Assembly: GCA_019747815.1 (NCBI GenBank) | Contig: JAIEQJ010000016.1 | Coordinates: 1 to 64,000, forward strand | From: Hyphomonadaceae bacterium | GTDB taxonomy: Bacteria > Pseudomonadota > Alphaproteobacteria > Rhizobiales > Hyphomicrobiaceae | Direction of reading: 5' to 3' | DNA: 64,000 nucleotides | Shown here: one piece after another, positions 10,797 through 48,990 of the stretch | Position numbering within the stretch: the stretch's first letter is position 1 | How the letters are laid out: every line of letters starts with the position of its first letter | Program-made: the position numbers and the translations under genes | The notes under the pieces: generated by a model | What the model saw: the letters and a program-made list of their open reading frames with translations, nothing else | Told to the model about the DNA's origin: nothing | The model's database searches: none

Positions 10797-11051
10797 TCAG
10801 GCGCGCTTGATGAGCCCGACCACGAACAGCACGATCACAGCGCCGATCACGGCATTGACGATGTCGCCGATGTAGCCGCCGCCGATATAGAGGCCGATAC
10901 GGGGCAGCAGCCAGCCTGCAACGAACGCGCCGACGATGCCCAGAATGATGTTGCCGATCAGGCCGAAGCCGCCGCCCGACATGATCTGACCAGCCAGCCA
11001 GCCGGCAATTGCACCGATGATGAGGAAGATGATCAGCGCTTCCAGTGCCAT
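10797..11051 (-). CDS. GlsB/YeaQ/YmgE family membrane protein
   Basis: An 84-residue protein of three membrane segments with Gly-rich turns: IIFLIIGAIAGWLAGQIM, GLIGNIILGIVGAFVAGWLL and IVNAVIGAVIVLFVVGLI. This is the transglycosylase-associated, stress-linked small membrane family of unknown mechanism. A paralogue lies at 12584-12841 on the same strand. It stands alone, convergent to proA. Confidence 0.9.
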   Translation of the reverse strand: MALEALIIFLIIGAIAGWLAGQIMSGGGFGLIGNIILGIVGAFVAGWLLPRIGLYIGGGYIGDIVNAVIGAVIVLFVVGLIKRA

Positions 11052-12583: not shown

Positions 12584-12841
12584 CTATTTCTTGATGTACC
12601 GGCTGACGAAGACCGCAATCACCGCCCCGATCACCGGGTTCACCAGATGGCCGAGATATCCGCCGCCCAGCAGAAACCCGAGGCTTGGAAACAAAAGTCC
12701 GCCGACCAGCCCGCCGCCGGTCCCGATGAGGATGTCCGTCTGCATGCCGTAGCTGTTTTTGGTCATGATCTGGTTGGCAAGCCAGCCGACGATGCTGCCG
12801 GCAAGCAACCACAGAAGAACGGCTTCGACAGTCAAAGGCAT
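12584..12841 (-). CDS. GlsB/YeaQ/YmgE family membrane protein, second copy
   Basis: An 85-residue three-segment membrane protein with LLWLLAGSIVGWLANQIM, TDILIGTGGGLVGGLLFP and LGHLVNPVIGAVIAVFV. It is clearly related to the protein at 10797-11051, sharing the AGWLA/VGWLA, GGYIG/GGYLG and NPVIGAVI positions. The two flank the CoA transferase and both read on the minus strand. Function is unknown beyond stress-associated membrane protein. Confidence 0.88.
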   Translation of the reverse strand: MPLTVEAVLLWLLAGSIVGWLANQIMTKNSYGMQTDILIGTGGGLVGGLLFPSLGFLLGGGYLGHLVNPVIGAVIAVFVSRYIKK

Positions 12842-12995: not shown

Positions 12996-13991
12996 TCACT
13001 CCACGATGTGCCCGCCGTCATACATGCAGGCAATGCGGCCGAGGGCGGCGCGCAGGGCATCGGTGTCGAGCAGTTGCGCTAGATCGCCGCTCGCGGCAGG
13101 CGGACGCGGCTGCTCCCCCGTTCCGATCAGCGACGGCACAACCGCGGGGCCGAAGGCGCCGGCCTTGGTCGCCTCCAGCCCTCGGTCCACAAGCTCAGCG
13201 AGCAAGGCGGGGCCAAGAGACGGCAGGGCTGCAAAGAACCCCGCCTGCAGCGTCTTGGCGAGCACGTGGTCGGGATGCTCGGTCCGCTCCACCGCGCGGC
13301 CGGCATCCCACAGGTGCTGCACCCGGTCCCACGGCGTCGGCTCGCGCGGAAAGCGCGCGGCGAGTTCCGCTGCCTCGTGCGCGACGTAGAAGCGATTAAG
13401 CCGGTCGAAGAACGCAAAGGCATAGCCGGCGGCGAGCAGGGCCGGCTCCCAGGCCTGCCAGCTCGCCTCCATGCTGCCGGGCGCGACGGCCTCCACCACC
13501 ACCACGCGCGGTCGCCAGCGCCTGAAATCCATGCCGGCGATGGCCTCGGCCTCGGCCCCCTCCACATCGATCTTCAGGAAATCGATGTCGGTCAGCCCGG
13601 CCTCGGCACACAGCGCCGCCAGCGGCCGCACCGGTTTCTTGACGGTGGCAAAATCCGCCCCGAACTGGCTGGCGCCCGCCGCATGCTGGCGCACGGTGGT
13701 GGAGAAGCCGTGCAGCTTGGCGACGACATGAAACTCCGCCTCCCCTTCGCTGCGTCCGGCGAGACAGCTCACCGTGCGGTCGCGCGGGCGCACGTGGGCA
13801 TAGATGCCAGCCAGCGTCTCCTGCGGCTCCACGATCAGGCCGCGCCAGCCCTTCAGGTAGAACCAGAACGACACGTTGTCGGCAACCGGATGCCCCCCGC
13901 CCACATCCACGTAGGTCCCGACCCGGCCGTCGGCGAACACCAGATCGAGGTGATAGTCCTCGAGGTTTTGTGCATATGAGAGCTGCATCAT
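12996..13991 (-). CDS. FkbM-family methyltransferase
   Basis: A 331-residue SAM-dependent O-methyltransferase of the FkbM type. The start MMQLSYAQNLEDYHLDLVF is the classic opening of this family, so the ATG at 13991 is preferred over the longer frame from 14063. Motif I is TYVDVGGGHPVADN, followed by GLIVEPQE, LAGRSEGEAEFHVV and FLKIDVEGAEAEAIAGMDF. These enzymes often methylate sugars or polyketides. The C-terminal 110 residues are not family-typical and contain no recognised domain. It ends next to the hairpin-pair region. Confidence 0.88.
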   Translation of the reverse strand: MMQLSYAQNLEDYHLDLVFADGRVGTYVDVGGGHPVADNVSFWFYLKGWRGLIVEPQETLAGIYAHVRPRDRTVSCLAGRSEGEAEFHVVAKLHGFSTTVRQHAAGASQFGADFATVKKPVRPLAALCAEAGLTDIDFLKIDVEGAEAEAIAGMDFRRWRPRVVVVEAVAPGSMEASWQAWEPALLAAGYAFAFFDRLNRFYVAHEAAELAARFPREPTPWDRVQHLWDAGRAVERTEHPDHVLAKTLQAGFFAALPSLGPALLAELVDRGLEATKAGAFGPAVVPSLIGTGEQPRPPAASGDLAQLLDTDALRAALGRIACMYDGGHIVE

Positions 13992-14023: not shown

Positions 14024-14100
14024 CTAGTGTGATGATCGAGAAATTCGCCCTTCCTCGCAGCACGCCTACTGAGCGAATTTCTCGATCTGAATCACACTAG
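14024..14100. repeat. Hairpin element C1 (25/28-base arms, 24-base loop)
   Basis: The left arm is 14024-14048 and the right arm 14073-14100. The arms pair perfectly over an outer 10 bases (CTAGTGTGAT) and an inner 15 bases (GATCGAGAAATTCGC), except for three extra bases (14088-14090) in the right arm. The loop (14049-14072) is 24 bases. In reverse complement it is homologous to element C2. Confidence 0.85.
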
Positions 14101-14131
14101 AACCATGAGCTTGCTAGAACCATGAGCTTGC
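14098..14131. repeat. Two tandem 17-base direct repeats between the hairpins
   Basis: TAGAACCATGAGCTTGC occurs twice without a gap, at 14098-14114 and 14115-14131, exactly filling the space between hairpin elements C1 and C2. It could be a target-site-like duplication or a slippage product. Confidence 0.85.
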
Positions 14132-14133
14132 TT

Positions 14134-14202
14134 GTGTCCTTTCGATCGCGAAGTTCGTTCAGCGCCTGCTGCAAGATCCGGCGAACTTCGCGATCGGGAC
14201 AC
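14134..14202. repeat. Hairpin element C2 (24/21-base arms, 24-base loop)
   Basis: GTGTCC (14134-14139) plus CGATCGCGAAGTTCG (14143-14157) pairs with CGAACTTCGCGATCG (14182-14196) plus GGACAC (14197-14202). Three extra bases (TTT, 14140-14142) sit in the left arm. The loop (14158-14181) is 24 bases. The right arm is followed by TAG, as in C1. Confidence 0.85.
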
Positions 14203-14270
14203 TAGTCGCGTGTCCAGTCTTGCGGAACCGAAGCCCTGTGGAAACCAGATCCTACGAAGTGGCCCACTCC

Positions 14271-15137
14271 ATGACGCCGCCCATCCTCGTCCACGCCGGG
14301 CCGCTTCTCGTGCGCTACCAGGCCGTTTTCTGCGACGTCTGGGGCGTCATGCACAACGGGCATACGGCCTACGCCGAGGCCGGCGATGCGCTGGTGCGCT
14401 TTCGCGGCCAGGGCGGCACGGTCGTGCTCGTTTCCAATGCCCCCGTCCCGGCCGCCGGCGTCGAGCGCGTGCTGGACAAGACCGGTGTCCGCCGGGATGC
14501 CTGGGATGCGATCGTCAGCTCAGGCGACATCGCGCTCGCGCACATTGCCGAGAAGGGCTACCGGCACCTGCACCGCATCGGTCCCACCCGGCGCGACAGC
14601 ATGCTGTTCGCGCGGCTGCCGGGCGCCAACCTCCCGCTCAACGAGGCCGAGGCCATCGTCTGCACCGGTCTTGCCGATGAGATCAACGAAACGGTCGCCA
14701 GCTATCAGCCTCTGATCGAGGCGGGCATCGCCCGCGGATTACCCTTCGTCTGCGCCAATCCCGATCTCGTGGTCGATGTCGGCGACCGGCGCTATCTGTG
14801 CGCCGGCAGCATTGCGGCAGAGTATGAGCGCCGGGGCGGCCAAGTATTCTGGGCGGGCAAGCCGCACCCCTCCGCCTACGCCTCGGCGCTCGCGCGGGCC
14901 GGCGAGCTGCGGGGTGCCAAACCCGAGCCTGCCCACATTCTCGCCATCGGCGATGCGGTGCGGACGGATCTCGCCGCCGCACAGGGCATGGGCATCGACG
15001 CGCTCTTCATCGCGTCGGGCATCCACAACGACGAGGTCCTGACCGACGGGGAGATCGATGCGGCCAAGCTCGCAGCCCTGTTCGCTCCATCCGCAACGCC
15101 ACCCGCCGTCGGGGTCATGACGCGGCTCGCGTGGTGA
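14271..15137 (+). CDS. HAD class IIA hydrolase, TIGR01459 type
   Basis: The 288-residue product is a haloacid-dehalogenase-fold phosphatase with a IIA cap. Motif 1 is FCDVWGVMHNG with Asp22 as nucleophile and Trp24 where most HAD phosphatases have a second Asp; the DxWG form is usual for this subfamily. Motif 2 is VLVSNAP, motif 3 GKPHPSAY, and motif 4 ILAIGDAVRTDLAAA. The ATG at 14271 is preferred over a TTG at 14220 because the fold begins right after it. The substrate is unknown; sugar phosphates are usual for the class. Confidence 0.88.
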   Translation: MTPPILVHAGPLLVRYQAVFCDVWGVMHNGHTAYAEAGDALVRFRGQGGTVVLVSNAPVPAAGVERVLDKTGVRRDAWDAIVSSGDIALAHIAEKGYRHLHRIGPTRRDSMLFARLPGANLPLNEAEAIVCTGLADEINETVASYQPLIEAGIARGLPFVCANPDLVVDVGDRRYLCAGSIAAEYERRGGQVFWAGKPHPSAYASALARAGELRGAKPEPAHILAIGDAVRTDLAAAQGMGIDALFIASGIHNDEVLTDGEIDAAKLAALFAPSATPPAVGVMTRLAW

Positions 15138-30243: not shown

Positions 30244-30376
30244 AGCACAGGGAAGCACGTAGGCCGCCACTCCCGCGACGGAGAGGTGCCGTGGCCTCGG
30301 CTAGATTTCACTTCACTAGCTGATTGCTCTCTTCCGCATTGTGCCACGACGCACGCGTGCGCCATTGGTTAGTCTT

Positions 30377-30404
30377 GACTTACGGTTAGAATGGACTTAC
30401 CGTT
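30377..30404. promoter_or_regulatory. Candidate ArsR-family operator/promoter
   Basis: The word GACTTACSGTT occurs at 30377-30387 and 30394-30404, a direct repeat with 17-base periodicity, and ACGGT/ACCGT within it are inverted. TTGACT at 30375-30380 fits a -35 box. It lies 54 to 81 bases upstream of the arsR-like start, as expected for autorepression. Inferred from position only. Confidence 0.45.
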
Positions 30405-30457
30405 TACGCAATGACGCGCTCCAAGCTTGCTGCTGCCCAAGCTGCAATGGAACCCGA

Positions 30458-30787
30458 ATGATGATCAACGCCGAGCGGGCCATGGACGCGCTAGGGGATC
30501 CCACCCGCCGCCTAGTGTTCAAGCGCCTGCGCAACCGCACGCGCTCGGTGGGCGAGATAGCCGAAGGGATGGATGTGAGCCGTCCCGCGGTTTCCCAGCA
30601 CTTGAAGGTGCTCAAGGCGGCCGGGCTTGTGGTGGTTCGCGCCGAAGGTGCGCGTCGCCTCTATGGTGTCGACACGCGCGGCATCGAGGCATTGCGCGGC
30701 TGGCTCGATGGCTTCTGGGAAGAAGCGCTTGTCGCCTTCAAACAAGCAGCCGAACGAGAAGCAACCAAGGGAAGGAAACCTCGATGA
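30458..30787 (+). CDS. ArsR/SmtB-family transcriptional regulator
   Basis: A 109-residue winged-helix repressor with AMDALGDPTRRLVFKRLRNR, the recognition region VGEIAEGMDVSRPAVSQHLKVLKAAGLV and the wing RAEGARRLYGVDT. No Cys pair for metal sensing is present, so it is of the SdpR-like, non-metal subtype. It is coupled (ATGA) to an SRPBCC gene, an arrangement seen widely for self-regulating detoxification or stress operons. GGA six bases upstream supports the start at 30458. Confidence 0.9.
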   Translation: MMINAERAMDALGDPTRRLVFKRLRNRTRSVGEIAEGMDVSRPAVSQHLKVLKAAGLVVVRAEGARRLYGVDTRGIEALRGWLDGFWEEALVAFKQAAEREATKGRKPR

Positions 30788-48531: not shown

Positions 48532-48990
48532 ATGGTCGACCTGAAGCTGATCGCCCTGGACGCCGACGACCTGTCCGTCATTTCCGCCCACCTGCAGGAC
48601 GCCGTGTTGCATGTCGGCGATCTGGCTTACCTGCCCAGGGAAAGCCGGTTTGCGGCCATTACCAACCGTTTCGATTGGGTCGATGCCCTCAAGGGTGGCA
48701 CCAGCGGCGACGCGACGTTTGCGCGCCGGCGCACGGCGCTCCGCTTCGAGCGCGTCCTGGGCGCGCAGGTGCAGGGCATCGATCTCAAGAACAAGGGCAC
48801 CGTGCTCTCGCTGCTGGCGATCGGCTTCGAGCCGGCGGACGCGCCCGAAGGCGATGTCATCCTGCACTTCTCCGAAGGCCGTGCCATCCGGCTGCGCGTG
48901 GAATGCATCGAGGCCGAATTGAAGGATCTGGGACCGGTCTGGCAGGCCGCATCCAAGCCCCAGCATCCCGACGATTCCACCAAGACCTAG
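48532..48990 (+). CDS. DUF2948 family protein
   Basis: The 152-residue product is a small alphaproteobacterial protein of unknown function that usually follows murA and precedes hisD. It starts MVDLKLIALDADDLSVISAH and has LQDAVLHVGDLAYLPRESRF, RFEWVDAL-like wording (NRFDWVDALKG) and ILHFSEGRAIRLRVECIEAE. The length and position are normal. The ATG at 48532 gives the family N-terminus. Confidence 0.9.
   Translation: MVDLKLIALDADDLSVISAHLQDAVLHVGDLAYLPRESRFAAITNRFDWVDALKGGTSGDATFARRRTALRFERVLGAQVQGIDLKNKGTVLSLLAIGFEPADAPEGDVILHFSEGRAIRLRVECIEAELKDLGPVWQAASKPQHPDDSTKT

Follow-up and report, generated by a model that had tools for sequence, protein, structure and literature searches.

A pair of facing hairpins lies in the gap between two divergent genes of the window (the whole 64,000-nucleotide stretch of a Hyphomonadaceae bacterium contig analyzed here), which raises the question of what kind of element this is and how it came to stand there. 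The initial annotation of the region, made from the letters alone, proposed a REPIN-like mobile element or, alternatively, divergent structured RNAs. Our comparisons point to a non-autonomous MITE with ends of the IS630/Tc1-mariner type, which would be moved in trans by an IS630-family transposase, and we put the probability of this reading at roughly 85%. The features of the locus, in window coordinates, are as follows:

12996–13991, minus strand: FkbM-domain methyltransferase gene (Pfam PF05050, 1.8e-23), start codon 32 bp from the element
14024–14205, unstranded: whole element, CTAG–hairpin A–CTAG–spacer–CTAG–spacer–CTTG–hairpin B–CTAG; 182 bp, the usual form being 165 bp
14024–14100, plus strand: hairpin A, with GTGTGAT foot, core GATCGAGAAATTCGC, 24-nt loop and an inner arm with three extra nucleotides, TGA
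14024–14048, plus strand: outer arm of A, presumed to be a functional terminal inverted repeat of the IS630 type, with its TA at 14025–14026
14024–14027, unstranded: left target word CTAG; C from the host, TA duplicated, G from the element
14097–14113, plus strand: first CTAG plus 13-bp spacer AACCATGAGCTTG, overlapping the last CTAG of hairpin A
14114–14130, plus strand: second CTAG plus 13-bp spacer, an extra copy
14131–14205, plus strand: hairpin B, with GTGTCC foot, core CGATCGCGAAGTTCG, 24-nt loop and an inner arm with three extra nucleotides, TTT
14182–14205, minus strand: outer arm of B, presumed to be a functional terminal inverted repeat of the IS630 type, with its TA at 14203–14204
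14202–14205, unstranded: right target word CTAG; C from the element, TA duplicated, G from the host
14271–15137, plus strand: HAD-like hydrolase gene (Pfam PF13242/PF13344), start codon 65 bp from the element

Elsewhere in the window, two similar small membrane-protein ORFs on the minus strand (10797–11051 and 12584–12841), GlsB/YeaQ-like by eye, have a CoA-transferase-like gene between them.

The facing-hairpin layout reported in the initial annotation was confirmed as real and far from chance. The perfect 15-nt inner arms and the 24-nt loops lie at 14034–14048/14073–14087 and 14143–14157/14182–14196, the outer arm ascribed to the first hairpin was found, and the 3-nt bulges, the common core GATCGnGAAnTTCG and the CAG and TGCTGC of the loops are all present in the sequence. 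The bounds proposed for the first hairpin (14024–14100) hold, and those of the second (14134–14202) had to be corrected to 14131–14205, its left CTAG being mutated to CTTG. Two perfect 17-nt repeats do occupy the gap (14097–14113 and 14114–14130), except that the first overlaps the terminal CTAG of hairpin A. Each 17-mer consists of CTAG and the 13-bp spacer, a module that is single in most copies of this genome and, among the copies read there, is doubled only in the window copy, at C103:40898 and at C6:48. Folding of both strands, a check suggested in the initial annotation, returned z-scores of −7 to −9, and the pattern CTAGTGTN{44,74}ACACTAG has a single match in the window and none in 100 window shuffles. 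CTAG itself is depleted in the window, with 25 occurrences seen versus 69 expected, and 4 of the 25 belong to the element.

A profile scan of the window, with inspection of a CTAG cluster at 30301–30515, found no other copies in it. Pattern and BLAST searches of the genome together gave a count of at least 50: a whole-doublet pattern search recovered 50 near-exact doublets, BLAST with the element region yielded ~40 scored copies, and perfect-footed hairpins numbered 102 versus 0 for a reversed control. Flank alignment defined a common unit of 165 bp, CTAG–hairpin A–CTAG–AACCATGAGCTTG–CTAG–hairpin B–CTAG; the flanks are mostly unrelated among copies, and the doublet is what they have in common. 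The element is short (165–182 bp) and multi-copy, and contains short frames only, with no coding capacity. Three copies (L003, L015 and L019, on contigs C6, C103 and C95 of this genome, G000) have a common left flank, agctgcgcttccatatgaaacgatcgcgct, and differing right flanks, so here the element borders another repeated segment.

Incomplete and aberrant copies also occur. Three half copies stop at the CTAG beside the spacer or at most 1–2 bases from it (C71:2567, C64:28257 and C64:48617), which fits a precise loss of one hairpin, other routes being possible. The two of these on C64 (L050 and L051, G000:C64:28257–28350 and 48617–48710) are a left and a right half, each with spacer and CTAG; they lie 20 kb apart on one contig in the same orientation and could represent a split element or an assembly effect. 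In rare hairpins of this genome (L046, L073 and C49:5674–5752) the two arms are of one type, either inner or outer, a pattern that copying of one arm onto its partner would give.

The same body plan recurs in other genomes. The element was matched in 16 of 60 relatives, all of the same family, and in a sample of the class B-type hairpins were detected in 7 of 288 other genomes; at six of the seven loci read in that sample, a second CTAG-footed hairpin or its remains stood ~13 bp away. A scan of GTDB contigs returned at least 118 stretches, and the matches listed include Hyphomicrobium, Afipia, Nitrobacter, Bradyrhizobium, Caulobacter, Phenylobacterium, Acidiphilium, Paramagnetospirillum and Parvularculaceae. 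The family is widespread in alphaproteobacterial orders but patchy, since the doublet core was absent from 397 other genomes across the phylum; a plasmid search with a consensus-like doublet gave no match. A Lysobacter match (L159) without hairpins was taken as chance. One Parvularculaceae contig (L184) carries two complete doublets in tandem with one CTAG in common, the arrangement expected if one doublet had inserted into the end of the other. In a congener (G006), several stem families with GATCG, GTCTC and GGTTC cores coexist on identical feet, as would be the case with more than one transposase specificity.

We read 68 complete doublets from the GTDB contig scan, and the counts that follow hold among the matches listed. 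Their outer arms begin with CTAGTGTCC (B) or CTAGTGTG (A), directly followed by the stem core, while the inner arms carry 2–4 extra bases, in the same place, in 67 of 68 B and ~65 of 68 A hairpins; an outer arm with extra bases was seen in at most one of 68 for either type. Spacers in the 68 doublets measure 12–14 nt, mostly 13, with the consensus CAACTTTATGATT; read by eye, spacers lie in both orientations with respect to A and B. Because the extra bases lie in the inner arm and almost never in the outer one, the inner ends are probably weakened, and the hairpin pair would move as a unit.

Both stems covary strongly, with 66 double-changed cells in B and 172 in A, values reached by 0 of 500 shuffles in each case. 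Standard pairs amount to 97–98%, falling to only 22–41% after the partner is slid by 1–3 columns, and G-U pairs, counted from the tables, make up ~1% of cells in the covarying stems. Such near-pure Watson–Crick covariation suits DNA inverted repeats better than RNA, with the arms kept identical for one protein or through conversion between arms. The initial annotation had named a single copy without compensatory stem changes as the outcome speaking against a mobile or structured element; decisively the opposite was found, the element being multi-copy and both stems covarying across species.

Orthologous loci without the element reveal its target. The divergent fkbM/HAD pair of four congeners (G003, G004, G005 and G006) lacks the element, and in two of them (G004 and G005) a single CTAG, reading CTAGT, stands at the window insertion point. 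For other copies, G004 or G005 likewise has a single CTAG or TTAG in the corresponding place, and one such empty site is the stop TTCTAG of a gene ending DDEIPF, probably ssb. These alignments reach 67–85% identity, the intergenic DNA of the relatives having diverged, with the word at the junction every time. Off-consensus ends read TTAG/CTAA (L142) and GTAG/CTAA (L163), and a 4-bp CTAG duplication was set aside because their left and right words differ. These ends and a tandem IS630 pair with one common CTAG indicate that the element inserts into CTAG and duplicates TA, the bases outside it being those of the host. At 26 of 33 sites the terminal TAG closes an open frame of 100 codons or more, compared with 13 and 15 in shifted controls, a stop-codon bias that is expected from CTAG targeting.

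The ends themselves resemble those of an IS630-family IS, which this genome carries as two tandem copies with one CTAG in common and with the ends CTAGTGTCCTGATTCCGAAGTTTTCCGGA and CTAGTGTCCTGATCGATAAATTTCCCGGA. The resident IS, whose ends read CTAGTGTCC..., sits in CTAG, and its transposase has DDE_3 and HTH domains. Elsewhere in the order, IS630 copies with resolved ends also lie between C and G, i.e., in CTAG; clear ends were obtained for only a part of the 30 IS630 loci put through an automatic terminal-repeat screen. A preference of IS630 for TA in CTAG has been reported (Tenzen and Ohtsubo 1991, as cited in PMC2170065). The resident left end, with the end sequence CTAGTGTCCTGATTCCGAAGTT, is identical to the consensus outer end of hairpin B at 21 of 24 positions, where the window background reaches at most 14 of 24, and the resident right end matches the A outer arm of this genome at 19 of 24; in G005, the right end of an IS630 matches an arm of a local hairpin A at 21 of 24. 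Random TAG-anchored 24-mers from the window, which form a clean background, reach at most 13–15 of 24, and a background that included the element and the IS ends was too strict. The similarity extends over ~24 bp and not beyond.

The tandem IS630 copies (L103 and L111, G000:C84) share a frameshift that falls after the N-terminal residues and before the HTH region. The resident transposase may therefore be inactive, or its synthesis may depend on frameshifting; the protein query, hand-joined across the frameshift, served only to find relatives. Present-day co-occurrence is imperfect, since two hairpin-rich genomes (G012 with 36 hairpins and G008 with 61) gave no DDE_3 match.

Several other readings have to be weighed against these observations. 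REPINs are inverted REP hairpins moved as single-stranded DNA by a Y1/HUH RAYT transposase, and they need both this transposase and GTAG-type tags. The likeness seen in the initial annotation stands insofar as the element is repeated and mobile and consists of homologous, oppositely oriented hairpins a short spacer apart, with bulged stems that show compensatory changes. The mechanism of a REPIN does not carry over: a search for the RAYT gene, which had been recommended, gave no Y1_Tnp match in this genome or in the element-rich G005, G012 and G019, and the presence of a Y1 match does not track the element. Moreover, both feet bear CTAG and not a GTAG/CGTC-type tag, insertion into CTAG duplicates TA, and the ends match an IS630 IS, all of which makes a REPIN very improbable. 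A MITE of another TA-duplicating IS family, e.g., the IS427 group of IS5, would agree with the target, since elements of this type such as IS711 also use YTAR and duplicate TA (PMC3163539); the target alone thus does not identify the transposase, and some carrier genomes are without IS630. Against this origin, which we consider unlikely, stands the end sequence CTAGTGTCC-TGATTCCGAAGTT, which agrees with that of IS630-family ISs from two genomes of the genus, in a comparison that covered IS630 ends.

A structured RNA or bidirectional terminator selected at gene borders, with mobility incidental or ancient, would account for the very stable hairpins, the strongly covarying stems and the excess of frames ending at the terminal TAG (26 of 33 sites versus 13 and 15). 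That excess is, however, what CTAG targeting predicts, and frequent double changes go with a G-U share of ~1% of cells, as DNA inverted repeats would give. No U-tract is present, and an Rfam search of the element matched no curated family. Given also that the insertion is missing at orthologous loci, neither a terminator nor the divergent structured RNAs of the initial annotation seem a likely explanation.

For the IS630-type MITE, we infer the following course of events. A DDE transposase of the IS630 family, provided in trans, would bind to hairpins A and B by their outer arms and cleave the flanking CTAG words at TA, and the whole 165-bp doublet would be pasted into another CTAG with duplication of TA. 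As CTAG is regenerated at both ends, the TAG stop codon of a gene could survive the insertion intact. The inner arm is an inverted copy of the outer arm in which 2–4 extra bases separate the CTAGTG foot from the binding core; these bases would put the cleavage site out of register and should weaken the inner ends, so that the hairpins move jointly. If an inner end were used now and then, the half copies (A–spacer–CTAG and CTAG–spacer–B) would result, and the doubled spacer of the window copy could stem from a longer array that lost a hairpin by excision. The element would then be a MITE of an ordinary kind in an unusual, conserved two-hairpin form, for which the evidence on target and family is good. 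CTAG targeting places copies at the borders of genes, in many cases at a TAG stop codon, and the family could reshape promoters and 3′ ends, for example between the fkbM and HAD genes here.

A broader and more tentative proposal, which we regard as possible but rather doubtful, is that a class-wide transposon lineage keeps the two-hairpin body (~75–79 bp, the 13-bp spacer CAACTTTATGATT and again ~75–79 bp) across alphaproteobacterial orders, the register shift of 2–4 bases disabling the inner ends and leading to paired movement. If true, this would be a new MITE design principle, in which two palindromes are coupled through cleavage sites set out of phase with the binding core, and it would explain the movement of two-armed alphaproteobacterial repeats such as CIR.

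The open-access literature searched contained no description of this family. Judged by description, the element comes closest to the two-armed CIR repeats known from Caulobacter and Brucella. A review (PMC2229807) outlines these Caulobacter CcrM-associated intergenic repeats (Chen and Shapiro 2003) as ~110-bp units of two independent stem-loop arms and a linker, with TA termini and a GANTC methylation site at a terminal loop, and states that more information is needed on how they move. On this outline, CIR and the related Brucella repeats are, like our element, alphaproteobacterial and intergenic, with two stem-loops, a linker and TA at both termini. The element differs in its length (165 bp, against ~110 bp in the CIR description), in its CTAG target words and IS630-like ends, and in that GANTC occurs in the loops of only 1 of 68 B and 14 of 68 A hairpins among the matches listed.

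Other systems resemble the element in part. RUP of Streptococcus pneumoniae, described as a ~107-bp MITE of IS630-Spn1 with proposed trans-mobilization (PMC2229807, PMC3049150), is by analogy a precedent for an IS630-type MITE: it too is short and non-coding, with terminal inverted repeats resembling those of an IS630-family IS and TA termini, although it is one simple, AT-rich unit from a Firmicute, and these descriptions mention no paired hairpins with inner CTAG. The IS630/Tc1-mariner ISs, including ISY100, agree in the end sequence (that of the IS630 in this genome), the CTAG target and the TA duplication, but they encode a transposase, which the hairpin element does not. REPIN/RAYT systems (PMC3116915) and GTAG/CGTC palindromes (PMC3733652) likewise form paired inverted hairpins in many dispersed copies, under a different tag, whereas our element duplicates TA and this genome gave no match to a tyrosine transposase. 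Phase-shifted inner arms suggest a simple way of locking two palindromes into one mobile unit, and by joining a CIR-like architecture with a target, a duplication and IS630-type ends, the element makes the mobility question testable and may show how poorly understood two-hairpin repeats spread.
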